The notes under the pieces are model-generated. The model saw only the letters and a list, made by a program, of their open reading frames with translations, was not told where the DNA came from and ran no database searches. DNA of 64,000 nt. Origin: Magnetococcales bacterium. GTDB taxonomy: Bacteria; Pseudomonadota; Magnetococcia; Magnetococcales; JADFWU01. The DNA lies in NCBI GenBank assembly GCA_015234045.1, contig JADFWU010000016.1:1-64000 (forward strand). The letters run 5' to 3'. The position numbers and the translations under genes were made by a program. Shown piece by piece: positions 25,901-64,000 of the stretch; the stretch's first letter is position 1, and every line of letters starts with the position of its first letter.

Positions 25901-26768
25901 AAATCGCCACCACTTGTGAAAGCGTTGATACGGTTATCGGTATAAATGTATCGGTATTGTTGCCAATACCAAGCTGTCCATTGTAGTTATCACCCCACAC
26001 CCACAACGCACCACTGGATGTCATGGCCATGGCGTGGTTATTACCAGCACTGATTGCCACTACCGTATCGGGCAATCCGGCAATCTGCACAGGCGCTCTG
26101 ATAATCGATGAAATACCCGGATCTTGACCAAGCTGTCCTTGATCATTCCTGCCCCACCCCCAAACCGTTCCATCCTGTTTGAGGGCAAGCATATAGTTTG
26201 AGCCTACTGAAATCGCCTGCACACCACTTAATGTAGAGATTTTCGAAGGTGTCAATTTTTTGCTGACATCACTTCCCAAACCTAATTGACCATACTGATT
26301 ATGACCCCATGACCAAACGTAGCCCGCGCTATCCAGAGCGGCACTGAAATAGTCACCCGCATCAATGGCGGCAATATCTGACAAACTCCACAACCGGGTT
26401 GGTTGATAAATATTTTCATCACTCCCGAGACCCAGCTGGCCAATACCATTATTACCCCACACCCACACGGAGCCATCTTCTTTCAACAACAGACTATGGA
26501 GCAACCCCGCTGCACTGGCCTTTGCCTGTGAAACATTGGGCACTTGGGTGGGAATGGAAATGGGCGTGTCCGAGGTCGTATTATTACCAAACTGACCGTC
26601 TGAATTACGCCCCCACACCCAGAGCGTGCCGTCGGCATGGACACCCAGCGTATGGTTCACACCTGCGGATATATAAGGTTCCACCGCGTCAACAGATGGT
26701 GTCATCACCATCTGAATGAGTAGCGTAAGAACAAAGGCAAAGCCCATGATGGCGGCGTTGCGCTTCAT
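19992..26768 (-). CDS. Giant secreted multidomain protein: RCC1 repeats, Ig/PKD/CHB_HEX-like modules, prealbumin-like repeats, C-terminal cyclophilin-type PPIase
   Basis: 2258 aa with signal peptide; many HTLGVHADGTLWVWGRNSDGQFG repeats; C-terminus ITLELYPDKSPITVANFLEYVDSGYYSYMIFHRVIQDFMIQGGGF...SQFFINHKDN (cyclophilin). Confidence 0.88.
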   Translation of the reverse strand: MKRNAAIMGFAFVLTLLIQMVMTPSVDAVEPYISAGVNHTLGVHADGTLWVWGRNSDGQFGNNTTSDTPISIPTQVPNVSQAKASAAGLLHSLLLKEDGSVWVWGNNGIGQLGLGSDENIYQPTRLWSLSDIAAIDAGDYFSAALDSAGYVWSWGHNQYGQLGLGSDVSKKLTPSKISTLSGVQAISVGSNYMLALKQDGTVWGWGRNDQGQLGQDPGISSIIRAPVQIAGLPDTVVAISAGNNHAMAMTSSGALWVWGDNYNGQLGIGNNTDTFIPITVSTLSQVVAISASTGSSVVLRQDGTLWSWGQNNYGQLGLGHKTKTNTPAQISTLTGISKISAGGYHFIAQTNQGELYSWGGNNSGQLGNTTTTNLSEPAPVVNPIDTEEIFSLTTAVVPGSSIPVTTTATLSAGPHSLAVSDDGDLWGWGFNAQSQTGVTGIDEIGRPEKSTQFQNVSQVSVGGLDPDEGFSAILKRDGTVWIQGWDAFGYLTASGTQDLSIPVKITGLPTDLIEIEAGAGHVMVLQSSGVVWSWGYNGNGQLGNSSRISTSTPAEVSGLSRVVEIATGSLHSVALTSDGVVYSWGENSRGELGLGHTVIADQPTAVPSLGNITAIAAGERHTMVKTDSARIRAWGANHYGQLGLGDYMDRTAPTLVPGLYDVHVMAGGRNHSVALLTDGTGYGWGDNRYGQLGTDNQDSTFFPAQIPGLISGIILDAWDHTLVLRSDGHVLGWGRNDVSQLGLGISGDHYRPIVITTTSGGQDLDLVQNDTQLYLIEDNGGSGVLPPPDGATKPYAYAITGQPEKGIISDLNTSTGAFTYTPFANANGVDTITYKANTSDAENHSYEIIIEPVNDVPIISGSPVTTIKASRDYSFQPDVLDVDGQGLTFTVENLPAWASFNTSTGKITGTPQTAGTTYDVTITVSDGTATAILDPFSITVLSLSGPAAVISPTPGVFAEPVTVSFDCEYASALGCTAIHYTTNGTSPTTSSPKYSAPFVLSQTTTLRYFAIDGGGYSQGVKSAVFTVDDTDPVVSITTPVDQEILSSSSAFPLISGAVSDVGGAMPTVHVQISNGQFQLRHDSSSRYQWTQESAWIDVDSLSGSNGVYGWSLNLSSAVVTGGGSLPSDFYTIKARAIDAAGNSDSDMRLFALGSPAQDDIVVGVGEGVVNGVLFNSLDLHRMADVTVTVGGETIQTDTSGRFSLALASGSRTLTTDVSGYLDVSDTFTMSSGATLTKLYALERDDGDIGPPGTIVIKDMVLPTEARASKAQIFQANALQAGGEVTDYLWLFEDGNTRSGSQVIYTFKQPGSQTVTLTVTGSDGNTLQQSFTVDVAEARYAISGMVSGLSTGDQLIISALSESKSIARTLTLTAESAFAPFTIENMQPASDYRLFVTAERYADGYWQGVVDGLPTPLRAWDQATLLDLSEHDISGINIQVEEGISLTVNLTGTQPGDMFDVMAYSDHSGSFVWTTVTALNTSVSAMLTGLISADDYQVMITPQNGDQVGGFYAGDGLSPAGEQRAAQIDLTTSRDVHVALSDGMSISGTVSGVSQGPVVVEAWSSRLSRGGRVMLNSSGSFAIKGLPPASDYRLFVESDYQPGGYYSASGLTTFIDAMRFNLESESQSDVDVFLSSGRSVSGTVSNLPDAVTGRVNAWSNVQNHFVSVPIENEGGYVFSGLHSVEDYRVSVEVPERGVAPQLVDLTGGSRSNINFSLLEGGRLDGVIYGLTSNEQAQIEAWSSTNDQQITDTIYGSGYGSDDFTLRGILPADDLILAVETKSGRYYFSQAGVVRTPVTATRLSLDEGETLNGLDMNLTTSQSLTISGSLTGIPDALADQVVTITAISDSGSYAQTKRSGNGDFQITGVPSGSYSLSVSAPDLVDLYYSGSSWQVSHENAGRVTILSNIANLSIAMSAGRIIAGDVWTNSVVTPGVTVQAWDDTLKIAGSAVTAQDGSFEITGLSASGTYNLEARKGRDVAGLQGLSLASGDQTGLLLELESGAGSIVGTIENGAGALVLIHDSVGDFVDAVVADSNGAFAVTGLNSAASYRVDVDSDGDYSVLEVSEANVSANGVPLSLGVTVEPVDVTIATSLGAITLELYPDKSPITVANFLEYVDSGYYSYMIFHRVIQDFMIQGGGFELKYSGGDLVPFYKTPNASIVNEAATNGLSNLRGTIAMARQSGADTATSQFFINHKDNLFLDYQLGVTPGYAVFGQVTDGLDVVDTIAAVETTGEDSNAAPMANYPIEPVLIYSISRN

Positions 26769-43419: not shown

Positions 43420-44202
43420 GTGCATGACTTTATTTCGGTAACTGAAATGGCAGGCGATCATGTCAGTACAGAACAGGTTGATCGCCTTTATCAACGCTAT
43501 GGTTGGGCTATGCCCTATTGTCGTGATCGGGATGTGCTTGAAGTCGCTTGTGGTACTGGTGCGGGACTTGGTTTCCTCAAGTCACACGCACGCTCGCTGA
43601 TCGGCGCTGATCTATGTGACAACGTGCTCTCAACACCTCGACTTCATTACGGAGACCGTATTGATATCCGAACGTTTGACGCACAAGACATCCCACTGCC
43701 CGCCAGTAGTCTGGATGTCGTCATCCTATTTGAAGCACTCTACTACCTACCTGAACCATTACGCTTTTTTCAATCCTGCCAACGGGTATTGCGTCCTGGC
43801 GGTCATCTCTTGATTGCAACTGCCAACAAAGATCTGTCTGATTTCAATCCCAGTCCGTTAAGCACAACATATTTTGGCTCAGTAGAGTTGGCCCAAACGC
43901 TCAACCAACACGGTTTTGAGGTGTCGCTGTATGGCAATACGCCCTATGAAAATACGGGCCTGCGACAACGCACGCTCCGCCCTTTGAAACAGGCTGCCGT
44001 ATCGCTGGGCCTACTCCCTAAATCCAAGGCGGGCAAGATGCTATTGAAGCGGTTTGTTTTTGGCAAGCCGACACATTTTCCTTGGGAAATCAAACAATCA
44101 TCGATTCAACACGCAGCACCTGAGCCAATTTCAAACACTGAGCCTGACCAATCCTTCAAAGTGATCTTTTGCGAGGCAACGTTGAAACATGCCACACAGT
44201 AA
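43420..44202 (+). CDS. SAM-dependent methyltransferase (class I), GTG start
   Basis: DVLEVACGTGAGLGFLKSHARSLIGADLCDNVL...LDVVILFEALYYLPEPLRFFQSCQRVLRPGGHLLIA. Confidence 0.88.
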   Translation: MHDFISVTEMAGDHVSTEQVDRLYQRYGWAMPYCRDRDVLEVACGTGAGLGFLKSHARSLIGADLCDNVLSTPRLHYGDRIDIRTFDAQDIPLPASSLDVVILFEALYYLPEPLRFFQSCQRVLRPGGHLLIATANKDLSDFNPSPLSTTYFGSVELAQTLNQHGFEVSLYGNTPYENTGLRQRTLRPLKQAAVSLGLLPKSKAGKMLLKRFVFGKPTHFPWEIKQSSIQHAAPEPISNTEPDQSFKVIFCEATLKHATQ

Positions 44203-44216
44203 GCGTTGACACAGCC

Positions 44217-45329
44217 ATGCACTCTGTTCCCTTTTTCGATTATCAGGCACTGTTTCGACAGCATGGTAACGCAATGATGGCCATCATTGCGGATTGTGCC
44301 GAGCGTGGCGCATTAATCATGCAGCAGGAACTGCTCGATTTTGAAACAAAGCTGGCCAAATTCATAGGCGTAGACCATGCCATCGGCGTTGGAAACTGCA
44401 CGGATGGGCTCTATCTGGCATTAAGTCAATCCGGCATCGGTGCTGGCGATGAAGTCATTTTTCCGGCTCATACATTTGTTGCCACCGCCGGTGCCATTAA
44501 ACAGGCCAATGCCATACCCGTTCCCGTAGAGTGTGGTACGGACCATTTGATTGATCCCAACGCAATAGAGCAAGCCATCACCCGCAATACACGCGCACTA
44601 TTGCCGGTCCAACTCAACGGGCGTGTGGCACAAATGGACCACATTCTCGCTATTGCCAAGCAGCATGATCTATTGGTGATTGAAGATGCAGCCCAAGCGC
44701 TGGGCGCGACGTTTCAGGGTAAAAAAGCGGGCAGTTTCGGTCTTGCCAGTGCATTCAGCTTCTATCCTGCCAAACTCGTTGGCGGATTGGGCGATGGCGG
44801 TGCTGTGGTGACCAATGATGCGGTATTGGCGAACAAAATCCGCGCCGCCCGAGATCATGGACGAGATCCAGAGCAGGGTACTATCCAATTTTGGGGGATG
44901 AACAGCCGATTGGACACGATCCAAGCGGCGGTACTCTCCTATCTGTTGGATCATTTTGATGAGGTGATCATCAAACGCCGTCACCTGGCCAATCTCTACA
45001 ATGAACAGTTACACGATCTTGATGATCTGACTCTACCACCAGCGCCGTCTGATCAGGGGGCCAACTGGGATGTATTTCAAAATTACGAGATTGAAACCAG
45101 TCACAGAGATCAATTGAAAGCGTATTTGAACCAACAGGGGATCGGCACCGCGCTTCCTTGGGGCGGTCAAGCGGTTCATCAATGGGCCAATCTTGGCTTT
45201 TCCTGTGCACTTCCGGTCACTGAACGCATCTTGTCACGGTCGTTGATGTTGCCGTTGAACATGGCGATAAAGGATGCCGATGTGCGCTCTGTCTGTCAGA
45301 CCATTCGAGGCTTTTATGAACAGGTCTGA
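44217..45329 (+). CDS. DegT/DnrJ/EryC1/StrS-family aminotransferase
   Basis: VGNCTDGLYLALSQSGIGAGDEVIFPAHTFVATAGAI; FSFYPAKLVGGLGDGGAVVTND. Confidence 0.92.
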   Translation: MHSVPFFDYQALFRQHGNAMMAIIADCAERGALIMQQELLDFETKLAKFIGVDHAIGVGNCTDGLYLALSQSGIGAGDEVIFPAHTFVATAGAIKQANAIPVPVECGTDHLIDPNAIEQAITRNTRALLPVQLNGRVAQMDHILAIAKQHDLLVIEDAAQALGATFQGKKAGSFGLASAFSFYPAKLVGGLGDGGAVVTNDAVLANKIRAARDHGRDPEQGTIQFWGMNSRLDTIQAAVLSYLLDHFDEVIIKRRHLANLYNEQLHDLDDLTLPPAPSDQGANWDVFQNYEIETSHRDQLKAYLNQQGIGTALPWGGQAVHQWANLGFSCALPVTERILSRSLMLPLNMAIKDADVRSVCQTIRGFYEQV

Positions 45330-46170
45330 AGCGTGCCATAAAGCCTGGCAAAACGACACGCCAATGCTTGCAAAACATATCCGTAAACATGCTTTAATGA
45401 TGACCAATCGAGGCAATACCGCCCATATCGGCTCTATTCTTTCCATGACAGATATCATTGCCGTGCTTTATGGCGCGGTGATGCGTTTTGATGCGGCCAA
45501 ACCGGATTGGATCGGACGAGATCGCTTTATTCTCAGTAAAGGTCATGCAGCCGCTGGTGTTTATGCGGCTTTGGCAGAGTGTGGGTTCTTCTCTACAGAT
45601 ATCTTAAAAAGTCATTGCCAATCCAATTCACCTCTGTGTGGCCATCTCACTCATAAGCCCCTTCCGGGGATTGAGCACTCTACCGGCTCTTTGGGCCACG
45701 GCTTATCTGTGGCATGTGGTCGGGCATACAGCTTGAAAAAATCCGGTTCGGACAGTCGCGTTTTCGTTGTAATGGGCGATGGCGAATGCGATGAGGGTGC
45801 CATATGGGAAGCGGCACTGTTTGCCGCACACCATCAGTTGGATAACCTGGTAGTGATCATTGATCGCAATCACTTACAAAGCATGACCACCACGGAGAAT
45901 ACCGTAAAGTTGGAGCCATTCGCTGATAAATGGCGGGCATTTGGCTGGGCTGTGGATCAACTGGATGGTCATGATCATACCGCTCTGAATACACGCTTGA
46001 CCACCCTGCCCTTTCGTTCGAATCAACCCAACTGCCTGATTGCCAATACGGTAAAAGGGTGTGGTGTTGGCTTTATGGAAAACCAGGTACTTTGGCACTA
46101 TCGGTCACCGCAAGGCAGTGAATTCATTGCAGCCTGTCACGCACTTGAGCATGGAGACAATAGTGCGTAA
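45316..46170 (+). CDS. Transketolase, N-terminal (ThDP-binding) subunit
   Basis: GNTAHIGSILSMTDIIAVLYGAVMRF; FILSKGHAAAGVYAALAE; GSLGHGLSVACGRAYSLK; GDGECDEGAIWEAALFAAHH. Confidence 0.93.
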   Translation: MNRSEACHKAWQNDTPMLAKHIRKHALMMTNRGNTAHIGSILSMTDIIAVLYGAVMRFDAAKPDWIGRDRFILSKGHAAAGVYAALAECGFFSTDILKSHCQSNSPLCGHLTHKPLPGIEHSTGSLGHGLSVACGRAYSLKKSGSDSRVFVVMGDGECDEGAIWEAALFAAHHQLDNLVVIIDRNHLQSMTTTENTVKLEPFADKWRAFGWAVDQLDGHDHTALNTRLTTLPFRSNQPNCLIANTVKGCGVGFMENQVLWHYRSPQGSEFIAACHALEHGDNSA

Positions 46171-47104
46171 TGCGTTTATTGAAACACTCATCACCCTGGC
46201 TGAGAAAAATCCTCGCCTGATGTTGATAACCGCTGATTTGGGATTTCGGATTTTTGATGATTTCATAGAGCGCTTCCCAGAACAGTTTCTCAATGTGGGT
46301 GTAGCGGAACAAAATATGATCGGTGTGGGCACCGGTCTGGCTCAGGAAGGATGGACTGTATTTGCCTATTCCATTGGCAACTTTTCCACACTGCGCTGCC
46401 TGGAACAGATTCGCAATGATGCTGCCTACCATAATGTCAATCTGACCGTTGTGGCATCCGGTGGCGGGATGGCTTATGGCACGTTGGGCATGTCACACCA
46501 CGCCACCGAAGATTTGGCTATCTTGCGTGCTTTGCCTGGCATCACCGTGACTGCGCCCTGTGACGTATTGGAAACAGTGCAACTGACACAGGCGTTAGCA
46601 GATCGACCGGGTGTCGGCTATCTGCGTCTTGAGCGCAGCAGTAGTCTGAAGTCTGATCAACCTGTGCATTTAGGTCAACCACGGCGATTACGCGAAGGAA
46701 ACGACCTGACGTTGATGGCCACTGGCGGCATTGTTTCCGAAGTAATGGCCGCCGCAGAGATGATGGTCAACCATGGAATCGAAGCCCGTGTATTGAGCAT
46801 TCACACGGTGAAACCACTCAACCCTTCTGAAATCCATGCAGCCATCATTGAAACGGGCGGCATTGTCACAGTTGAAGAGCATACTGTAATGGGCGGGTTG
46901 GGCAGTACGGTGATGGAATGCTTTGTTGAACAGGGTATGACACCGGGCTTTTTCATGCGTCTGGGATTACCGGATCGTGCGGTGGACCAAGTGGGCGATC
47001 AAGCCTGGTTGCGTACGCATTATGGATTGGATGCAGTGGCCATTGTCCAGCGTACACGCCAACTGTTTGCGACAAAAAAAACGCAACACTGTGGTATCCA
47101 ATGA
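46151..47104 (+). CDS. Transketolase, C-terminal (Pyr) subunit
   Basis: FIETLITLAEKNPRLMLITADLG; FLNVGVAEQNMIGVGTGLA; TVEEHTVMGGLGSTVMECF. Confidence 0.93.
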   Translation: METIVRNAFIETLITLAEKNPRLMLITADLGFRIFDDFIERFPEQFLNVGVAEQNMIGVGTGLAQEGWTVFAYSIGNFSTLRCLEQIRNDAAYHNVNLTVVASGGGMAYGTLGMSHHATEDLAILRALPGITVTAPCDVLETVQLTQALADRPGVGYLRLERSSSLKSDQPVHLGQPRRLREGNDLTLMATGGIVSEVMAAAEMMVNHGIEARVLSIHTVKPLNPSEIHAAIIETGGIVTVEEHTVMGGLGSTVMECFVEQGMTPGFFMRLGLPDRAVDQVGDQAWLRTHYGLDAVAIVQRTRQLFATKKTQHCGIQ

Positions 47105-47838
47105 AACGTCTGATGGACATCCTGTTGGCACTGATCGGGCTTTTACTCTCAGCCCCTGTTGTGCTGGTTTTCATGCTGCTTGTCTGGCGACAAGATGGTC
47201 ATAGCCCATTTTATCGCGGAGAGCGCATTGGGTTACAGGGTCGTGTGTTTCGCATGACCAAACTACGCACCATGATACACAACGCCCATCAAAGTGGTGT
47301 CGATTCCACATCCACATCGGACAGACGCATCACGCCGGTTGGTGAACGGATTCGCCGTTTCAAACTGGATGAGCTAACCCAGCTTTGGCATGTATTGATT
47401 GGTGAGATGTCTCTGGTGGGGCCGCGTCCGAATGTTGCTGCGGATGTCGCACTGTATACCAACCGCGAACGGGACCTGCTTTCGGTATTACCGGGTATCA
47501 CGGATCTGGCCTCTATCGTATTTGCCGATGAGGGCGACATCCTACGCCACAGCCAAGACCCGGACCTGGATTACAATCGCCTGATCCGACCTTGGAAAAG
47601 CCGCCTGGGCCTACTCTATGTTCAAAATCGCTCGACATGGCTGGATATACAGATTATCTGGTTGACGATCCGTGCGCTGATCAATCGCCCTTCCGCTTTG
47701 AATCGTCTGGCACGCTGTGTGAGGCGGCTGGGCGGTTCAGAATCGCTCTGCCAGGTGGTGTGCCGGGTTGATCCACTCACACCACATCCACCACCGGGCA
47801 GTGACGTGATTGTCACGTCACGCAGGATCAATGACTGA
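47101..47838 (+). CDS. Sugar transferase (bacterial priming glycosyltransferase family)
   Basis: MKRLMDILLALIGLLLSAPV...PFYRGERIGLQGRVFRMTKLRTM...GERIRRFKLDELTQLWHVLIGEMSLVGPRP. Confidence 0.93.
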   Translation: MKRLMDILLALIGLLLSAPVVLVFMLLVWRQDGHSPFYRGERIGLQGRVFRMTKLRTMIHNAHQSGVDSTSTSDRRITPVGERIRRFKLDELTQLWHVLIGEMSLVGPRPNVAADVALYTNRERDLLSVLPGITDLASIVFADEGDILRHSQDPDLDYNRLIRPWKSRLGLLYVQNRSTWLDIQIIWLTIRALINRPSALNRLARCVRRLGGSESLCQVVCRVDPLTPHPPPGSDVIVTSRRIND

Positions 47839-49028
47839 TGCCTGAGTCAAACAGATCCACACATCATAAAGGCATCAACCTCCATATCTATCCCTCCCGG
47901 TTTGCCCATCGGACACGGATATTGAAGCAAATGCGAGCAATCTGGGATTGGCACTGTTTTGATGAGATCCATGTGGTCGCGATCCATGATGGTGTACTGC
48001 CACAAGAAGAACAGATTGGACCAGATCAGAGGGTTTTTCGGCTTACTATTCCCGCCATATTACAGTCAGGTGGTCGATTGCGTCGGGTACTGGCACATCT
48101 ATTTTGGATGGTTAAGATCCATCGGACCTATGCCAAACAGACCATACGCTGTATCAACTGCCATAATCTGGGCACGCTTGGATTGGGTGTCTGGTTCAAA
48201 ATACGCTACGGTTCACTACTGATCTACGATGCCCATGAGTTGGAGACTCAGCGCAATGGTTGGCCGACATGGCTCTGTTGGGCTACGGGCGTGATTGAGC
48301 GCCTGCTCATTCGATGGGTGGATCAGCTGATTGTGGTAGGTCCAGCCATTGCAGCATGGTATCAGAATCACTATGGACTGCCGGACAATCGGGTTCATGT
48401 GGTCCGCAATGTGCCACAAAAACAGCCGATTATTAGTGAGTCCATCGACTTGAAACGGCGGATGGGTATTCCTGCGCATCACATACTGTGCATCTATGTC
48501 GGATTGCTGGATAGCGGACGCAATATCACCATGATGTTGGAAAGCTTTTCACGCTGTCATCGGTCAGATATTCACCTGTTGATGCTGGGTTACGGTCCAT
48601 TGAGCAATACCTGTCAAAGCATGGCACACGCACATGACACGATCCATTATCATCCAGCTGTTGCACCAGATCAGGTGGTCAATTATATCACCGCTGCGGA
48701 TGTCGGGTTGGTCCTGATTGAACAGAGCTGTTTGAGTTACTACTACTGCCTGCCCAACAAACTGTTTGAGTGCCTGATGGCCGGCGTTCCTGTGTTAACA
48801 AGCGACTTCCCAGAGATGAGTCAGATTGTTCACACCCATGCGTGCGGCTGGTGCATTCCACCCGCTGATGAAGCGCTTGTTAATTTTTTACAAGAGCTTC
48901 ACATATCCGCCATCGAACAGAAACATCACGGTGCCAAACAGGCCGCTTCTCTACTGGATTGGCATCATGAAGCCAACACGATGAAACAAGCTTATCAAGA
49001 AATTATCGACAATACACAAAAATACTAA
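47838..49028 (+). CDS. Glycosyltransferase (GT4-like)
   Basis: INCHNLGTLGLGVWFKIRYGSLLIYDAHELET; CIYVGLLDSGRNITMMLE; PNKLFECLMAGVPVLTSDFPEM; TGATG overlap with preceding gene. Confidence 0.9.
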   Translation: MPESNRSTHHKGINLHIYPSRFAHRTRILKQMRAIWDWHCFDEIHVVAIHDGVLPQEEQIGPDQRVFRLTIPAILQSGGRLRRVLAHLFWMVKIHRTYAKQTIRCINCHNLGTLGLGVWFKIRYGSLLIYDAHELETQRNGWPTWLCWATGVIERLLIRWVDQLIVVGPAIAAWYQNHYGLPDNRVHVVRNVPQKQPIISESIDLKRRMGIPAHHILCIYVGLLDSGRNITMMLESFSRCHRSDIHLLMLGYGPLSNTCQSMAHAHDTIHYHPAVAPDQVVNYITAADVGLVLIEQSCLSYYYCLPNKLFECLMAGVPVLTSDFPEMSQIVHTHACGWCIPPADEALVNFLQELHISAIEQKHHGAKQAASLLDWHHEANTMKQAYQEIIDNTQKY

Positions 49029-55090: not shown

Positions 55091-55612
55091 ATGGGAGAAC
55101 CATATATCGGCGAGGTTCGCATTGTCGGCTTTGACTATGCACCAGTTGGCTGGGCCAAATGTGATGGTCAGACGTTATCAATAAACCAAAATCAAACACT
55201 GTTTGCACAACTCGGTGTAACATATGGTGGCAATGGGATAACCGATTTCAAATTGCCAGATTTGCGTGGGCGCGTACCCATTCATTTTGGCGATAGTTTC
55301 GGCGGGGTCTATTTGCGAGGCCAACTCGGTGGCGTACCATCGACCAATTTACACGAAGAACAGATGGCCACCCATAGTCATTACATCAGAGGATGCCCAG
55401 ACACAGCTGACACAGCTTTACCGGATCAGGCACTGTTCGCAAGCACTGACGACAAAAATGTCTATGAAAATATTGACACAGGTTCTTTGGTTCAGCTTCC
55501 AGCAGACACGGTAAATTCAACTGGTCAAGGTGCAGGACATCCGAACACGCAACCGACCCTGGTTTTGAACTTCATCATTGCTCTGCGTGGTCTTTGGCCA
55601 CCACGGGATTAG
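55091..55612 (+). CDS. Phage tail collar domain protein (MdpB/COG4675-like), copy 1
   Basis: GEVRIVGFDYAPVGWAKCDGQTLSINQNQTLFAQLGVTYGGNGITDFKLPDLRGRVPIHFG. Confidence 0.93.
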   Translation: MGEPYIGEVRIVGFDYAPVGWAKCDGQTLSINQNQTLFAQLGVTYGGNGITDFKLPDLRGRVPIHFGDSFGGVYLRGQLGGVPSTNLHEEQMATHSHYIRGCPDTADTALPDQALFASTDDKNVYENIDTGSLVQLPADTVNSTGQGAGHPNTQPTLVLNFIIALRGLWPPRD

Positions 55613-55625
55613 CAGGAGATAAAAA

Positions 55626-56156
55626 ATGGATCCATTTATTGGTGAAATCAGAATGTTTACTGGCAATTTTGCACCAAGATTGTGGGCATTTTGCGATGGA
55701 CAATATGTGACACCTCAGCAACACAGTTCACTTTTTGCTCTTATTGGTGCCACTTATGGTGGAGATGGGTACACAAAGAGTGCACTACCTGACCTACGTG
55801 GACGCCTCCCTGCACACTACGGCCAAGGCCCAGGTACAGACTACTACATTCAAGGCATGACTCCTGGTTACGAGAGAATTCCCCTTTCAATCAGTCAATT
55901 GCCTAGCCATCGCCACTCAGTCTCTGCCTCTGGAGATCCTGCAAACGAATCAGCAATTACAGCAAACTCAAATGAGTCTGTTGCTCTAACAGATAGTCGG
56001 ACGCTGATCTATACAGAAGACAAATCGTCCATGAAAACCATGGACAGCGACACAGTGCAGGTAACCGGGAACTCATTACCACATAACAACATGATGCCAT
56101 ACACTGTTGTTAATTTTATTATTGCCCTTGAAGGTGAGTGGCCGAGCAGAACTTGA
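55626..56156 (+). CDS. Phage tail collar domain protein, copy 2
   Basis: GEIRMFTGNFAPRLWAFCDGQYVTPQQHSSLFALIGATYGGDGYTKSALPDLRGRLPAHYG. Confidence 0.93.
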   Translation: MDPFIGEIRMFTGNFAPRLWAFCDGQYVTPQQHSSLFALIGATYGGDGYTKSALPDLRGRLPAHYGQGPGTDYYIQGMTPGYERIPLSISQLPSHRHSVSASGDPANESAITANSNESVALTDSRTLIYTEDKSSMKTMDSDTVQVTGNSLPHNNMMPYTVVNFIIALEGEWPSRT

Positions 56157-56171
56157 TAAAGGAGACGTAAA

Positions 56172-56726
56172 ATGGCAGACCCATTTATCGGTCAAATCAC
56201 TATCATGGCAGGCAGCTATGCACCCAAAGGCCATGCTTTCTGTGATGGTCAGATACTTAGTATTCAGCAAAACCCCGAACTCTACAGTATTATTGGTATA
56301 GGTTATGGCGGTGATGGCCGCTCCACTTTTGGAGTACCTGACATGAGGGGCCGTGCACCACTAGGTGCAGGCTTTGGGACTGGACTGACTCCACACCCAT
56401 TTAATGGAAATAAATATGGCGGTGAACCCCTCCATACGCTTTCAGTGGAAGAAATTCCGTCCCACACCCATACAATCAACACATCTCAAGCTAAAGCTGA
56501 CTTAAACACACCATCTGCTGACACGTATGTTGGCAGACCTCAAGCAATGAAACGCAGAACGTTTTCTGACTTTTTTATGTACAGTCAGGATTTCATTCAA
56601 GAAGTTCAAATGAGCAACGCAGCCATGGGCGCAGCAGGCGCAAGTCAGCCACATGAAAACAGGCAGCCCTTTTCTGTGTTGTCATTTGTCATTGCATTGG
56701 CAGGAACCTATCCCCAACACAGTTAA
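56172..56726 (+). CDS. Phage tail collar domain protein, copy 3
   Basis: GQITIMAGSYAPKGHAFCDGQILSIQQNPELYSIIGIGYGGDGRSTFGVPDMRGRAPLGAG. Confidence 0.93.
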   Translation: MADPFIGQITIMAGSYAPKGHAFCDGQILSIQQNPELYSIIGIGYGGDGRSTFGVPDMRGRAPLGAGFGTGLTPHPFNGNKYGGEPLHTLSVEEIPSHTHTINTSQAKADLNTPSADTYVGRPQAMKRRTFSDFFMYSQDFIQEVQMSNAAMGAAGASQPHENRQPFSVLSFVIALAGTYPQHS

Positions 56727-56755
56727 TCCAAAACAGGGACCTCGGAAAAGTCTGA

Positions 56756-57289
56756 ATGACCATGTGCGTAGAAAACATAAAAATAGTACTGCGCCCTTTG
56801 GAAGAGGAAAAGGACTTGCTCTTCCTTCAGTATCTTTACGATACCACACGCCATTGGGAAATGGTCCAGATCCAGCAGGCAGAAAACTGGACAACTGGAG
56901 AGATCATTGCTTTTTTGATCAACCAGTTTACGCTTCAACATCGGCAGTATATGGACAATTACCCCAAGGCCGAACACCACATAATAGAGTGTAACAGCCT
57001 CCCGATTGGGAGGCTTTATGTGGAAACTCAAAAGCATGAGATCAGAATCATTGATATCGCTCTGGTGCCAGAATATCAACAACAAGGTATCGGAGGGAGA
57101 CTGATTCAAAGGGCGCTAAAACGAGGCGAAAATCTGGGGTTGCCGGTTTCCATTCATGTGGAAAACAATAATCCGGCTATGACACTGTATCAGCGTCTTG
57201 GTTTCAAAAAAATTGACGAAGTCGGCATCTATCATCTGATGCGTTGGCATCCTGATGACAGAGAGTCAGATTCATTTGATGCGGCCTAG
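56756..57289 (+). CDS. GNAT-family N-acetyltransferase
   Basis: IRIIDIALVPEYQQQGIGGRLIQRALKRGENLGLPVSIHVENNNPAMTLYQRLGFKKI. Confidence 0.93.
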   Translation: MTMCVENIKIVLRPLEEEKDLLFLQYLYDTTRHWEMVQIQQAENWTTGEIIAFLINQFTLQHRQYMDNYPKAEHHIIECNSLPIGRLYVETQKHEIRIIDIALVPEYQQQGIGGRLIQRALKRGENLGLPVSIHVENNNPAMTLYQRLGFKKIDEVGIYHLMRWHPDDRESDSFDAA

Positions 57290-57318
57290 AGCATATTATA
57301 AAATTAGACAATGAATCA

Positions 57319-57437
57319 CAACCTGAGTGGAAGCCCTGGTGATGTTTTTGCGCCGCTTTTGATATGCGAAGCAGATCATCAGAGCAAAAACATCACCAGG
57401 GCTAGAACACTGTTCAAATTTTAGACAAAAACACTAT
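57319..57437. repeat. Dispersed hairpin repeat copy B with perfect 20-bp stem
   Basis: agccctggtgatgtttttgc (57332-57351) / gcaaaaacatcaccagggct (57384-57403); flanks match copy A at 36412. Confidence 0.85.
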
Positions 57438-57496
57438 GACATCGGTGGACAGCAAAGGATGATGTAACAACTTCACCCTTTGCTGTCCATTTAGCA

Positions 57497-57892
57497 TCAA
57501 CTAAAAATAGCCTGGAAATTGACACCTTCAACATAATTGTCGTCACTTTGGGCCAAGCTTTTCTGTTGTTCGACCGATTTTTCGACTGTTGCGGGCAACA
57601 CAGGCACCATAAGGATCTGCATTGTGCCAATTTTGTCATTGGACACGTCATAGCATCCCTGCTGTACCGGTGCCTTTCCTTTGGTTTCAAACATCAGGGA
57701 AAAGGGCAGACGACCGACAACACGCAAACGCTCTTTATCAGACTCTTTGGAGGTCATTTTGGCTTCAATCAGTTCAGCCTCAATAACTTTTTCATCAATG
57801 GTAATGTTAAACATTTCGCCCACTAAAGGCTCAAATGTCGCACACCTTAACTGTTGAAGATCTGGCGATTTTAGAGTGGATTCTTCAGCCAT
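57497..57892 (-). CDS. DUF6916-like small protein
   Basis: ATFEPLVGEMFNITIDEKVIEAELIEAKMTSKESDKERLRVVGRLPFSLMFETKGKAPVQQGCYDVSNDKIGTMQILMVPV; likely start at internal ATG 57892. Confidence 0.6.
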   Translation of the reverse strand: MAEESTLKSPDLQQLRCATFEPLVGEMFNITIDEKVIEAELIEAKMTSKESDKERLRVVGRLPFSLMFETKGKAPVQQGCYDVSNDKIGTMQILMVPVLPATVEKSVEQQKSLAQSDDNYVEGVNFQAIFS

Positions 57893-58338
57893 GGACTTTG
57901 CCTCACGAAACATTAAGTTAGATTACTTTAATGAAAGAATGCATCACACATAATTAATTGTCAACCCAATATTTTACAATTACAGCGATATTATATTAAA
58001 ATTAAACAGCTATAGGATTATTTGTTGTCCTTTTTTTACCAGCATACAATCATTGCCTGACATATAGTGGTTCATCTATTCTCTGGATGCAGAATCATAA
58101 TATGCGACACCATAATATCACTAATTATCTCATCCACTTCTTATTCTTGAAATATTGATTAAAATTATATATTATTGAGTATAGTTTGAAAGTTTAAACT
58201 TTATTGATAAGTTATTACTGTATCTTCATAAAGAAAAGCATCCTCAACCGTCTCTCAAAAATTGAGTTTAGATCGGGGTTCTGTGCCCCTGGAAGAGCCC
58301 CTAAGCTATTAACCTCACAACAAACCAAGACTATATCT

Positions 58339-59232
58339 ATGAGTCATAAAATTCACTTCATCTCTGGTCTTCCTCGTTCTGGCTCAACGTTGCTTGGCGC
58401 AATTCTTCGTCAGAATCCGCGATTCCAGGCAGGAATGAGCAGTCCTGTTTTTAATTTGTGTAGCGGATTAATCGCCATGATGAGTGCTGGTGGTGAGATG
58501 AACTTGATGATTCAAGACTCTCAAAAGCCAAACCTGGTCAGGAATCTCTTTACCAGCTACTACTCTGACCCTATTTTCCCAAAAAATATTGAAGTGATAT
58601 TTGACACCAACAGAGGCTGGTGCGGGAAGCTACACACAGCCCTCGACCTCTTCCCCAATGCCAAAGTGATCTGTACGGTTCGTAACTTGGCTTGGATAAT
58701 GGATAGCTTGGAACGCGTATTTCGAAAAAACCCCTACGAAAACACGAGACTGTTCGGGCCGACCCCCCATACAGGCAGTGTCTATGGCCGAGTTAATACT
58801 CTCTCTCAACCAAACAGCTTGGTTGGAAGCGCCTATCTTGCTCTACGTGAAGCGTTCTATAGCGAAAATTCCCAGGCCCTGTTGGTTGTGGATTATGAAC
58901 TGCTCACGCGCCGTCCACACGAAGTCATGCCTTTGATTTATGAATTTATAGATGAACCCTGGTTTGAACACGATTTTGACAACGTTGAGTATGACGCACC
59001 TGATTTCGACCAGGCAGTTGGCGCACGTGGGCTGCATCATGTGGCTAGAAAAGTCGAGTTCAAACCGCGCAAAAGTCTTCTGCCACCAGATCTATTTCAG
59101 CAATACAGTGATCAGGCTTTCTGGACTGACTTACGCGGCAGCGCAGCTAAAGTGATCGCACCTGAACAAAAAACCAAAAAAAATGAGATGACGGACATCT
59201 CACCCATGCTCCCAAAAGCAGGCGTTTTTTAA
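58339..59232 (+). CDS. Sulfotransferase-family protein
   Basis: HFISGLPRSGSTLLGAILRQNPRF PAPS-loop-like; AKVICTVRNLAWIMDSLERVF; start at internal ATG 58339. Confidence 0.85.
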   Translation: MSHKIHFISGLPRSGSTLLGAILRQNPRFQAGMSSPVFNLCSGLIAMMSAGGEMNLMIQDSQKPNLVRNLFTSYYSDPIFPKNIEVIFDTNRGWCGKLHTALDLFPNAKVICTVRNLAWIMDSLERVFRKNPYENTRLFGPTPHTGSVYGRVNTLSQPNSLVGSAYLALREAFYSENSQALLVVDYELLTRRPHEVMPLIYEFIDEPWFEHDFDNVEYDAPDFDQAVGARGLHHVARKVEFKPRKSLLPPDLFQQYSDQAFWTDLRGSAAKVIAPEQKTKKNEMTDISPMLPKAGVF

Positions 59233-59268
59233 TCCCCCCTTCATGATTTGCTTGTTAGGAAAACAGCC

Positions 59269-62200
59269 ATGTCTCGTTTTTGTTCAATACTGGATTTTGT
59301 AAATCATAAGAAAAACATCTCTGGTCTTCAAAAACAGAAATCCACAATTTCTGCATTCAATCATGCCCCAGCCCCAGTCAACACAAATCATGCTTTCACT
59401 CTTGAACCACGCATTCTGTTTGATGCAGCTGGCGCTCTGACCATGATCAGTGAGGGTGAGATTAATGAAACCGACATGGACAACTGCGCTTGTGACAACG
59501 CCTTACCCATAACCCCGGACAATGGCAGTGATACTGCGGCAGAACTACTGAACTCGGCACTGCTAACACTTTCTGGAACAGAGAGTTCTACTGACGCGTT
59601 AGATTCCGAAGAACATATAGCCGACACGCCTCTCTCTTTGAACGCGAGACGAGAGATTGTTTTTATTGATCAAGCTATCGAAAATTATGGTGATTTACTC
59701 ACCGGCGTATCATCCTCTGCTGAAATCGTGCTGATTGACGGCGATGGAATCCATCAAATTACCGAATATTTAAAGAGTCAACAGGGGATTGACGCTATTC
59801 ATATTCTTTCCCATGGTGGTATGGGATTTATTGAGCTAGGTGATGACCACCTCTCACTGGAAACATTAAATCAGGACCAATCAGCCATCCAGTCCTGGGG
59901 AAATGCACTCACTGAAAATGGAGATATTTTGCTCTATGGATGTAATGTAAGTGGAAATAGTGAGGGACAAGATTTTATTAGACAACTCTCTGAACTAACC
60001 GGTGCTGATGTTGCTGCCTCTGATGATATTACTGGACATGCAACACTAAGCGGTAACTGGAATCTCGAATCTCAGACAGGTATTATTGAACCAAACTTTT
60101 CTATCACTGATAATATGAGCGATTCTTTTCTTCAGTCGCTTGCTGTTGTCAGTGGCACAGAGCTTTTGGAAGATATGGGGGCGGACACCACTGACGGAAT
60201 CAACACTTCTGGATGGTCAACAAACAATACTTATTACTACCTTACCGGCACTACTCATGATGCAACGGCCGTTGCCTATGTAGAAGTGGACACAAACTAT
60301 ATTAGCAAGTTTGATATTACTGAAATATATTTTGCTTGTACCGGGGATCAACCACTAGATGCTGGCGGATTTGTTTTAACTGGTTATAAAACTGATTCAA
60401 CAACCGTAAGCTGGACTTCCAGTTATGAAACATATTCCCAGTTTTCCGCGAGCATTGTCTGGACTAATCTGACAAAGATTAAATTTTTTGCAGACTCCTC
60501 AAAAAATCAAGAAGCTAGCGCTTCTCCCTCTTGGATGGGCGTTGGTTCCATCACTTTTGGAACGGTAACAGAAGGAGGTGGCGACACCACGTCACCAACG
60601 GTTACCAGCGTTTCAGCCACCACAGCTGACGGCACATATGGAATCAGTGACACCATTGACATAACAGTCACTTTCGATGAATCCGTCACCGTCACCGGCA
60701 CGCCACAAATCACCCTGGAAACCGGCACTTCTGATGCCGTTGTGGACTACAGCAGCGGATCAGGCAGTGCAACACTGACTTTTCAATATACAATCAGTGC
60801 CGGTGAAAGCAGTTCGGATCTTGCCTACTTGAGCACCAGCGCTCTGGACCTTAATGGCGGCACCATTGCCGATTCCTCTGCCAATACCGCAACATTGACC
60901 TTGTCTACACCCGGTGCAGCCAACTCTTTGAGCAATAGCAAAGCCCTAGTGGTAGATGGCGTTGCACCAACGGTTTCCAGTGTTTCAGCCACCACAGCCG
61001 ATGGCACATATGGAATCAGCGACACCATTGATATAACAGTCACCTTTGATGAATCCGTCACCGTCACCGGCACGCCACAAATCACCCTGGAAACCGGCAC
61101 TTCTGATGCGATTGTTGACTACAGCAGCGGCTCTGGTAGCGCCACATTAACTTTCCAATATACCGTTAGCGCAGGCGAAACCAGCTCTGATCTGGACTAC
61201 ATAAGCACCAGTGCTCTGGCACTCAACAGCGGCACCATCCTTGATTCCGCAGGCAATGCAGCCACGCTGACTCTGGCCTCTCCTGGCGCAGCCAACTCCC
61301 TTGGCAATAATAAAGCCCTGGCCTTGGATACAACAGCGCCTACGGTTACCGATGGTAATGTCTCCATCAGCGGCAGCAGTGGCACCTCTGGTGCGTACAT
61401 AGTTGGTGATACAATCACCGCCACTTGGGACAACACCGGCTCCGGTGATAACAACAGCGACATCAATACCGTTACCGTTGATTTTAGCAGTTTCGGCGGC
61501 GGTGCAGCAGTATCAGCGACTAACAGTTCAGAAACCTGGACAGCCACCTATACCCTTGTCTCTGGTTCCATTGATGGTACCAGTCTGAACGTCAGTGTCA
61601 CTGCCACTGATGATGCCAGCAACGCCACCACCACATCGGACAGCACCAATGCCACTGTTGACAACCAGGTAGCCACCGTTACCGATGGCAACCTCTCCAT
61701 CACCAGCAGTGGCAGCGGCACGTCTGGAGCCTATATCATCGGCGACACGATCACCGCCCAATGGGATAACACCGGCAGCGGCGACAACAATGGTGACATC
61801 TCTACAGTTACCATGGATTTCAGCAGTTTTGGCGGCGGTTCAGCGGTCTCTGCCACCAACAGTTCAGACACCTGGTCAGCATCATACACCGTTGTTTCAG
61901 GCTCCATTGACAGCAGCAGCCTGAATGTCTCAGCATCCGCCTCTGATGACGCTGGCAATAGCGCTACAACCACGAGTGACACATCCAATCTCACTTTGGA
62001 TAATCAAGTACCCGTTGTCACAGATGGCAACATCTCTATCACCAGTTCCGGCAGTGGCACCAGCGGCGCGTATATCGTTGGAGATACCGTCACCGTCCAG
62101 TGGGATAACACCGGCAGTGGCGACAATAACGGTGATATTGCCTCCGTTACCGTGGATTTCTCCGCCTTTGGCGGCGGTGCTTCCGTCTCCGCAACCAACA

Positions 62201-64000
62201 GTTCAGACACATGGACCGCCTCTTACACCATCGTCTCCGGCACCATTGACAGCAGTAGTCTGAATGCCTCCGTCTCGGCCACAGATGACGCTGCCAACAC
62301 CGCCACCACCACCGCTGATAGCAGTAATTTAACCCTGGATAATCAAGAACCCTCAGTCAACTCGGTGAGCGTGCCCAGCGATGGCACATATGTTGCCGAT
62401 GACACCCTGGATTTTACCGTAAACTTTGACGAAGCAGTCACGGTTGATACAGGTAGCGGCACGCCAACCATCAGCTTTGATCTTGGCGGCTCTACAAAAT
62501 CAGCCGCCTATCTCAGCGGTTCCACTACCACGGCATTGGTATTCCGCTACACCGTAATCAGTGACGATATTGACTTGGATGGTATTACTGCACCCACAGC
62601 GATCACGTTGAATTCCGGCACCATTCAGGACGACAAAGGCAATGATGCCAGCACCAGCCTGACCAGCGTGGGCAGTACCACCAACGTCCTGGTGGACGCA
62701 GTCGCGCCAACATTCAACAGCGCTGGTTCCACGCCCAATGATGGTGATTCAGGGGTCGCCATTGCCGATGATATTATCGTTGATTTCAGCGAAGACATCG
62801 CCGCTGGCACTGGAAACATCACCCTCTATAACGTGACCGACAGCACCACTACCGAAACCTATGACATCTCCGGCGCAGGCTCCGGCACATCACCCACAGC
62901 GGGCACCATCTCGATAAGTAGCGATAAACTCTATATTGATCCCACCAGCACTCTGAGTGCCGGCAAGCAGTACAGCATCCAAGTAGCCACCACCGCCATC
63001 GAGGATACCGCAGGCAACAGCTTTGCCGGAATTACCGACACCACCACCTTAAATTTCTATACCATCCCACTGGTCACCCTCTCTGCATCACCGACAAGCA
63101 CCAGTGAGAACGGCGGCACGTCCACCATCACCGCCACCTTGAACCAAACATCCAGCAGCACTGTCACCATCAATCTATCCACAAGCGGCACAGCCACAGA
63201 CAGCGGCACCGATTATTCGCTCTCATCCAACAGCATCACCATCACCGCAGGCAACACCACCGGCACCACCACCCTGACCGGCGTTGATGATGCTGCCTCC
63301 GAGGGCGATGAAACCGCTATCATTGATATCAATACGGTGACCAATGGTGCAGAAAGCGGCACCCAATCCGTCACCATCACCCTGACCGATGATGACAATA
63401 CAGCCCCTGAAGTTGATCTGGATACCAGCAGTGGCGGTGTGGATTATTCAGTCACCTTCACCGAAGGCGGCGGCAACATCGATATCGCCAACAGCAGTAA
63501 TTTGGACGTCACTGACGCGGATACCGACACCATCGCCACCGTCATCATCTCCCTGACCAATGATCAGGATGGTGCCAGCGAATATCTGACCTCCACAGTC
63601 AACAATGGTAATGTCACTGTGTCCAATAACGACAGTGATACCATCACCCTCACTGATGCCGGAAGCGCCTCCTATGCCGACTTTGAAGCGGTATTGGATG
63701 GTATTCAGTATGTCAACAGCACCACCACACCGGACACCACGACCCGCACAGTAACCGTGGTCGCCAACGATGGTACCACCGATGGCAGTGCAGCTACCGC
63801 ATCAATTACCGTGGATGCCCTGCCCGTAGTCAGTTCCGTGTCCGTACCCTCTGACGCAACCTACAAATCTGGTGACACACTTGATTTTACTGTAACATTC
63901 AGCGAATCCGTCATCGTTGACACCAGCAGCGGCACACCCTATTTTGAACTCACAGTTGGTTCGTCCACCGTCAATGCCAGCTATAATGGCAGCGATGACG
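59269..64000 (+). CDS. Giant LEPR-motif/DUF4347 repeat protein (surface/secreted adhesin-like), 3' end beyond window
   Basis: Manual translation is open to base 64000: MSRFCSILDFVNHKK...AFTLEPRILFDAAGA...REIVFIDQAIENYGDLL...IHILSHGGMGFIELG...ILLYGCNVSGN...; then many Ig-like, Calx-beta-like and cadherin-like repeats; start at 59269, not in the ORF track because no stop is present. Confidence 0.92.
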   Translation, partial: MSRFCSILDFVNHKKNISGLQKQKSTISAFNHAPAPVNTNHAFTLEPRILFDAAGALTMISEGEINETDMDNCACDNALPITPDNGSDTAAELLNSALLTLSGTESSTDALDSEEHIADTPLSLNARREIVFIDQAIENYGDLLTGVSSSAEIVLIDGDGIHQITEYLKSQQGIDAIHILSHGGMGFIELGDDHLSLETLNQDQSAIQSWGNALTENGDILLYGCNVSGNSEGQDFIRQLSELTGADVAASDDITGHATLSGNWNLESQTGIIEPNFSITDNMSDSFLQSLAVVSGTELLEDMGADTTDGINTSGWSTNNTYYYLTGTTHDATAVAYVEVDTNYISKFDITEIYFACTGDQPLDAGGFVLTGYKTDSTTVSWTSSYETYSQFSASIVWTNLTKIKFFADSSKNQEASASPSWMGVGSITFGTVTEGGGDTTSPTVTSVSATTADGTYGISDTIDITVTFDESVTVTGTPQITLETGTSDAVVDYSSGSGSATLTFQYTISAGESSSDLAYLSTSALDLNGGTIADSSANTATLTLSTPGAANSLSNSKALVVDGVAPTVSSVSATTADGTYGISDTIDITVTFDESVTVTGTPQITLETGTSDAIVDYSSGSGSATLTFQYTVSAGETSSDLDYISTSALALNSGTILDSAGNAATLTLASPGAANSLGNNKALALDTTAPTVTDGNVSISGSSGTSGAYIVGDTITATWDNTGSGDNNSDINTVTVDFSSFGGGAAVSATNSSETWTATYTLVSGSIDGTSLNVSVTATDDASNATTTSDSTNATVDNQVATVTDGNLSITSSGSGTSGAYIIGDTITAQWDNTGSGDNNGDISTVTMDFSSFGGGSAVSATNSSDTWSASYTVVSGSIDSSSLNVSASASDDAGNSATTTSDTSNLTLDNQVPVVTDGNISITSSGSGTSGAYIVGDTVTVQWDNTGSGDNNGDIASVTVDFSAFGGGASVSATNSSDTWTASYTIVSGTIDSSSLNASVSATDDAANTATTTADSSNLTLDNQEPSVNSVSVPSDGTYVADDTLDFTVNFDEAVTVDTGSGTPTISFDLGGSTKSAAYLSGSTTTALVFRYTVISDDIDLDGITAPTAITLNSGTIQDDKGNDASTSLTSVGSTTNVLVDAVAPTFNSAGSTPNDGDSGVAIADDIIVDFSEDIAAGTGNITLYNVTDSTTTETYDISGAGSGTSPTAGTISISSDKLYIDPTSTLSAGKQYSIQVATTAIEDTAGNSFAGITDTTTLNFYTIPLVTLSASPTSTSENGGTSTITATLNQTSSSTVTINLSTSGTATDSGTDYSLSSNSITITAGNTTGTTTLTGVDDAASEGDETAIIDINTVTNGAESGTQSVTITLTDDDNTAPEVDLDTSSGGVDYSVTFTEGGGNIDIANSSNLDVTDADTDTIATVIISLTNDQDGASEYLTSTVNNGNVTVSNNDSDTITLTDAGSASYADFEAVLDGIQYVNSTTTPDTTTRTVTVVANDGTTDGSAATASITVDALPVVSSVSVPSDATYKSGDTLDFTVTFSESVIVDTSSGTPYFELTVGSSTVNASYNGSDD
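60595..61338 (+). repeat. Two near-identical 372-bp intragenic tandem repeats
   Basis: ccaacggtt(a/t)ccag(c/t)gtttcagccaccacagc(t/c)ga(c/t)ggcacatatggaatcag(t/c)gacacc at 60595 and 60967. Confidence 0.85.
61342..62340 (+). repeat. Three ~333-339-bp intragenic Ig-like tandem repeats
   Basis: VTDGN(V/L/I)SI(S/T)..SGTSGAYI(V/I)GDT(I/V)T(A/V).WDNTGSGDNN(S/G)DI three times. Confidence 0.85.

Follow-up and report, generated by a model that had tools for sequence, protein, structure and literature searches.

Three tandem collar proteins, a dedicated acetyltransferase and a DUF6916 protein form a conserved bacterial module often located beside giant surface-type proteins

A locus of three tandem tail-collar genes (COL1, COL2 and COL3), a GNAT acetyltransferase gene and a convergent DUF6916 gene was analyzed in a Magnetococcales bacterium (GenBank assembly GCA_015234045.1, contig JADFWU010000016.1, positions 1 to 64,000; this whole 64,000-nucleotide stretch is referred to as the window). 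These five genes make up a non-phage module, COL1-COL2-COL3-GNAT plus DUF6916, whose conservation extends over many bacterial phyla. It is likely that the three collar proteins form a 1:1:1 heterotrimer, and we lean slightly towards an extracellular role of the module in conjunction with giant proteins encoded beside it. A preliminary description made from the window sequence had reported these five genes followed by a sulfotransferase gene and a giant LEPR/DUF4347 gene; open reading frames and Pfam matches confirmed all of them. The module genes are:

55091..55612, + strand: COL1, collar protein at triplet position 1, 173 residues, without signal peptide (PF07484, E 3.7e-26; HxH motif; positional orthology)
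55626..56156, + strand: COL2, collar protein at triplet position 2, 176 residues (PF07484, E 3e-24; HxH at residues 95/97)
56172..56726, + strand: COL3, collar protein at triplet position 3, 184 residues (PF07484, E 2.3e-24; HxH motif)
56756..57289, + strand: RimI-like, module-specific GNAT acetyltransferase, 177 residues, closing the collar operon (PF00583; subfamily score gap; fusions at loci L246 and L111)
57497..57913, - strand: DUF6916 protein, 138 residues, convergent with the collar operon (PF21880, E 4.6e-15)

Conservation of the module

The gaps between COL1 and COL2, COL2 and COL3, and COL3 and the GNAT gene were 13, 15 and 29 nucleotides, respectively, and AGGAG-like sequences preceded COL2 and COL3, indicating that the four genes constitute one operon. 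A genome-wide domain search of the source genome found collar domains in COL1, COL2 and COL3 only. When 48 genomes of the same class, all belonging to one order, were scanned for collar, DUF6916 and DUF4347 domains, these were carried by 19, 14 and 44 genomes, respectively. Most of the 19 collar genomes had a DUF6916 gene and/or a DUF4347 giant within about 3 kb of the collar genes; examples of close linkage are G041:C200, G045:C213, G025:C211, G032:C95, G026:C51 and G020:C97. An even sample of 398 Pseudomonadota genomes was used for the DUF6916, collar and C-terminal-domain searches. DUF6916 was present in 45 of these genomes and collar domains in 105. Comparison of the two lists by hand showed that all DUF6916 carriers except G085 and G100 (43 of 45) had a collar gene at most 5 kb away from it.

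The class and phylum samples supplied 60 loci, and GTDB genomes a further 80 named ones, for a comparison of gene neighborhoods. The phylum loci had been picked for collar genes (most also contained DUF6916) and the named loci were the best matches to the collar query; the locus counts given here describe collar loci, not random genomes. The GTDB genome scan used the narrow collar alignment A2, the broader A1 being too diverse. The recurring unit across loci was one or three short collar genes with a GNAT and a DUF6916 gene. The complete set with three collars was found in nine phyla: Pseudomonadota, Acidobacteriota, Chloroflexota, Planctomycetota, Cyanobacteriota, Verrucomicrobiota, Deinococcota, Myxococcota and Bacteroidota (one locus). 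In Bacillota (Paenibacillus), the triplet and GNAT occurred without DUF6916. When only loci with 5 kb on both sides were counted, the GNAT was present in 30 of 36 phylum-sample and 44 of 54 named-genome loci, and DUF6916 in 28 of 36 and 36 of 54, respectively. Of 20 control regions, each of 20 kb and drawn from the same genomes, none had a collar, DUF6916 or module-type GNAT gene. The gene arrangement is far beyond chance. One Acidobacteria contig (L198) carried eight consecutive collar genes, and signs of positive selection have been reported for collar paralogues of Ca. Solibacter (PMC3174227).

The ordered collar triplet

For positions 1, 2 and 3, respectively, 75, 74 and 84 of the 89 collar proteins had their best match in another locus at the same triplet position. 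In a tree of 267 collar sequences, the position label changed 34 times, compared with 130 ± 4.6 times when labels were shuffled within triplets, showing that the three positions are ancient ordered orthologues. The placement of the window proteins in a fast tree was less clear than this overall pattern. The nearest rows of COL2 were mostly position 2; those of COL1 were mostly position 1, but the very nearest was a position-3 row; and those of COL3 were mostly position 2.

The HxH motif was present in all three chains of 88 of the 89 triplets, and the collar profile aligned it with the HKH motif of phage T4 gp12 (1OCY). The gp12 protein in that structure binds zinc as a trimer. COL1, COL2 and COL3 would most likely join in a 1:1:1 ratio into a single knob similar to the T4 short-tail-fibre head, in which the HxH pairs of all three chains would hold a putative metal ion. 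The likeness to gp12 lies in the collar domain and the aligned His-x-His motif. However, gp12 is a homotrimer at the end of a long virion fibre, whereas the window encodes three different short chains with neither shaft nor virion.

The closest experimental precedent is the tripartite tail of the virophage DSLV2. Three consecutive collar proteins of DSLV2 are reported to purify together as a 1:1:1 heterotrimer and to cluster by position in trees; the trimer attaches to Synechococcus cells, and lipopolysaccharide has been proposed as its receptor (PMC12724248). Both systems thus comprise three tandem short collar proteins with strict positional orthology, and they have the same total size (58 kDa for the DSLV2 complex; 533 residues for the window triplet). 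The DSLV2 genes, by contrast, are viral and adjoin a minor capsid gene, and the available text describes no GNAT, DUF6916 or giant protein (PMC12724248). The window system is bacterial and chromosomal and has dedicated partner genes.

Fusion proteins

At locus L245 (4529-6757), a single frame of 743 residues contained three collars and glycine/aspartate repeats identified by eye as RTX-type, which are typical of type I secreted proteins. At L140 (9071-10567), three collars were flanked by a signal-peptide-like N-terminus and a PEP-CTERM anchor in a 499-residue protein. These two fusions place collar triplets outside the cell. A third fusion (L246) joined two collars and a GNAT in one frame of 617 residues, showing that the GNAT belongs with the collars; at L111, the GNAT and DUF6916 shared a single frame. 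The conserved collar C-terminus (G-x-F/Y/W-P) was considered as an export signal and dropped, since it also occurs internally in the fused triple collars.

The GNAT and DUF6916 proteins

Module copies of the GNAT scored 101-219 bits against the GNAT profile, compared with 25 and 37 bits for two generic GNATs, indicating that the module GNAT is a distinct, dedicated subfamily. It tracks the collars and DUF6916, not the giant. The preliminary description had proposed that the acetyltransferase modifies the giant protein or its glycan; this found no support as stated, as the GNAT follows the collars in both its subfamily scores and its fusions with collars and DUF6916. The collar proteins are probably its substrate, and they would be acetylated perhaps at their conserved N-termini (M-x-D/E-P-F/Y-I-G-E-I).

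The structural model of DUF6916 was confident and of mixed beta type, with a predicted local distance difference test score (pLDDT) of 83.8, and had no significant fold match in the PDB or in viral model libraries. Weak hits to tail-tube and flavin split-barrel proteins were not interpretable. By exclusion only, DUF6916 would be a near-constant helper of the module, perhaps an assembly or adaptor subunit. No mention of DUF6916 was found in a literature search whose coverage left out preprints and most subscription journals.

Giant partner proteins

A giant was called surface-type when it had at least 1000 residues and satisfied a composition rule of our own making, applied identically to loci and controls. 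Such a giant was encoded within 5 kb of the collar genes in 22 of 36 phylum-sample and 32 of 54 named-genome loci with 5 kb on both sides, and in none of the 20 controls. A coherent non-phage locus tied to surface giants, as the preliminary description had suggested, was thus borne out: the module recurs in at least nine phyla, giants accompany 54 of 90 loci, co-occurrence extends to unrelated genomes and no prophage was found.

Several classes of giant were observed. DUF4347 giants were one partner type. Outside the source class, DUF4347 adjoined collar genes in 14 of 59 genomes that encoded it, where a rough gene-density estimate gave a chance expectation below 0.1. A neighborhood search for collar triplets near DUF4347 proteins had been suggested in the preliminary description; the link recurs, but DUF4347 is only one type of partner and most of its genes lie away from collars. 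Other giants were autotransporters (L103 carries PF03797) or had IPTL-CTERM or GlyGly-CTERM sorting signals. A further class consisted of beta-helix giants immediately upstream of COL1 on the same strand; their undescribed C-terminal domain spans about 115 residues, has a GGxCPxP-like tail and contains two invariant cysteines. This domain (alignment A5) is located as follows at three loci:

L155:8974-9318: two-cysteine C-terminal domain
L188:8606-8950: two-cysteine C-terminal domain
L154:2988-3332: two-cysteine C-terminal domain

The two-cysteine domain had no Pfam or NCBIfam match beyond weak ones to repeats or unrelated families. Its genome search covered the Pseudomonadota sample, where the profile matched three of the 398 genomes (G085, G338 and G162), each time just upstream of a collar triplet. 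The profile detects part of the beta-helix giants (11 open reading frames in 10 loci), some similar tails falling below the threshold.

The collar knob would act outside the cell as a binding head, and its usual partner, the giant repeat protein beside the module, would serve as its stalk or anchor. Display of the collar head on giants, which would involve physical contact between the two, is less certain than the heterotrimer. Several observations weigh against it. None of the 267 unfused triplet collar proteins had a signal-peptide-like N-terminus, and in about 40% of loci no surface-like giant was encoded within 5 kb. Partner giants are mutually non-homologous and use differing export routes, and DUF4347 genes mostly lack a collar gene in their vicinity. 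The fusion of collars to a GNAT (L246) is also hard to square with a purely extracellular collar, because acetyl-CoA is intracellular. All of these points would fit a real collar heterotrimer that is not mounted on a giant. It would instead be a separate lectin-like binder that is secreted or released by lysis, or else a factor acting inside the cell, and giants would be nearby only because surface genes gather in islands. We consider this explanation unlikely, though it is the best of the alternatives. Adjacency of collar and giant genes was tight (often 0-350 bp) and recurred in many phyla, the C-terminal domain of one giant class was found solely next to collar genes, and the collar fusions to RTX repeats and PEP-CTERM point outside the cell.

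Display on giants, taken to its full extent, would amount to an unrecognised cross-phylum surface apparatus. Its head would be heterotrimeric, acetylated and metal-stapled, with its own acetyltransferase and a DUF6916 assembly factor, and would be carried on interchangeable giant stalks, one class of which has a two-cysteine docking domain. This complete picture is offered tentatively.

The DUF4347 giant and the sulfotransferase of the window

Downstream of the module, the window contains the following features:

58339..59232, + strand: sulfotransferase with an intact 3'-phosphoadenosine 5'-phosphosulfate (PAPS)-binding motif, LPRSGSTLLG (Sulfotransfer_3, PF13469, E 1.6e-15)
59269..64000, + strand, open at the window end: giant LEPR/DUF4347/Ig-repeat protein (open reading frame, Pfam matches)
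59401..59430, + strand: LEPRILFDAA motif near the N-terminus of the giant (translation)
59656..60129, + strand: DUF4347 domain of the giant, caspase-like (clan CD-like) fold, conserved His and Cys (HILSHG...LYGC) (PF14252, E 1.5e-51)
62695..63396, + strand: Big_5 and Calx-beta domains of the giant (Pfam)

The sulfotransferase frame opens at TTG 58204; its start is probably ATG 58339, and that of the giant is probably ATG 59269. The giant is cut by the contig end at 65,493, placing its C-terminus and any export genes beyond reach. The giant showed no obvious N-terminal signal peptide when judged by eye. It shares the LEPR motif, DUF4347 and Ig-like repeats with the known LEPR/DUF4347 giants, most of which, however, lack a collar module; the link to collars and to this sulfotransferase family characterizes a subset. 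Export-like gene sets were found at seven collar-DUF4347 loci (L081:3229-9540, from the same class, L130:11016-15199, L132, L121, L123, L127 and L128). They comprised an outer-membrane efflux protein together with HlyD-type proteins, of which one carried a fused peptidase M50 domain; no adjacent ABC ATPase was identified.

A DUF4347 model (six sequences, pLDDT 75) matched Hcp3-Tce1 best (9QPE, E 1.6e-6), as well as legumain and caspases, and two residues, the His in HILSHG and the Cys in LYGC, were invariant in the DUF4347 alignment. It is plausible that the N-terminal domain is a caspase-like peptidase that could process the giant. DUF4347 also occurs in the type VI effector PA0256 (PMC8262886). 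This protein shares the domain with the window giant, and Hcp3-Tce1 gave the best fold match; both are type VI effectors, whereas the window DUF4347 domain lies at the N-terminus of a surface-type giant.

Sulfotransferases of the window family were found in eight fetched loci, always beside a DUF4347 giant; two of these, L141 and L135, represent a single locus obtained from two sources. The family was absent from 30 class loci that had been retrieved by their DUF4347 domains with flanks of just about 1.5 kb. From gene position alone, and otherwise unsupported, the sulfotransferase could be an accessory of the LEPR/DUF4347 giant class. Sulfotransferases of all families occurred in 26 of 141 collar loci and in none of 20 controls, a weak excess. 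These associations would suit an adhesin or surface-display system whose giant protein or glycan is modified by the acetyltransferase and the sulfotransferase. Such a system is improbable, as the GNAT goes with the collars and DUF6916 and most loci have no sulfotransferase; the sulfotransferase control is also small and weak.

The sulfotransferase matched the function-unassigned phage family phrog_27463 (E 4e-39), and relatives occur in phages. At L082 (7718-8908), a DUF4915 protein is encoded between the GNAT and the DUF4347 giant, the place taken by the sulfotransferase in the window. Asparagine-synthase-like genes lay near collar modules at six loci (L094, L098, L105, L107, L108 and L137), together with HPr-kinase-like, PqqD-like and/or sulfotransferase genes; these groups resemble a peptide-modification cluster.

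Defence and phage origins

A phage-derived binding head and the presence of DUF4347 in PA0256 could also be expected of an anti-phage or interbacterial system that uses the fibre head as a decoy. We regard this as very improbable, because the association is with surface giants. None of the six small module proteins had a PADLOC match, and a known defence system was rejected on this basis.

A prophage remnant, tailocin or contractile-injection leftover is the least probable origin: the collar is a phage tail-fibre domain, PHROGs label all three proteins as tail proteins and the collars at L244 and L247 are clearly phage-type (C-terminal on a long fibre protein, without GNAT or DUF6916), but ordered triplets with GNAT and DUF6916 recur across phyla without phage genes, and DUF6916 has no PHROG match. 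This origin was rejected for the window locus because its collar set is the only one in the genome, its phage relatives are distant (at most 36% identical, mostly at one place per record) and the ten upstream window proteins checked had no phage domains.

Relation to previous knowledge

Collar-only proteins have been named COG4675/MdpB "microcystin-dependent proteins", a name that also fits the window collars. COG4675 proteins have been detected in soil metaproteomes (PMC5579227), indicating that proteins of this type are expressed in nature. In contrast to the module reported here, the searched literature describes no operon, partner genes or function for them. Searches on DUF6916, on COG4675 and on collars with adhesin or secretion, within the coverage given above, returned no description of a collar-module system and no role of a collar protein outside phages and virophages. 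The collar heterotrimer has a viral precedent; the whole bacterial system is undescribed in the searched literature.

MdpB-type collar proteins are widespread, and they are now tied in many phyla to a dedicated acetyltransferase, DUF6916 and giant surface proteins. This suggests that a virus attachment device was adopted by bacteria for their own surfaces. If true, viral attachment heads have repeatedly been put to use by bacteria on their own surfaces, and a testable role would emerge at once for several "domain of unknown function" families. The proposed 1:1:1 heterotrimer provides a sharp structural model with a published viral counterpart.

Other features of the window

Methyltransferase, DegT aminotransferase, transketolase-like and glycosyltransferase genes were located at 43420-49028, 6 kb upstream of the collar locus, and probably form a surface-sugar cluster. 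A second very large protein of the window is encoded by an open reading frame of 2258 residues at 19992-26768 on the - strand.

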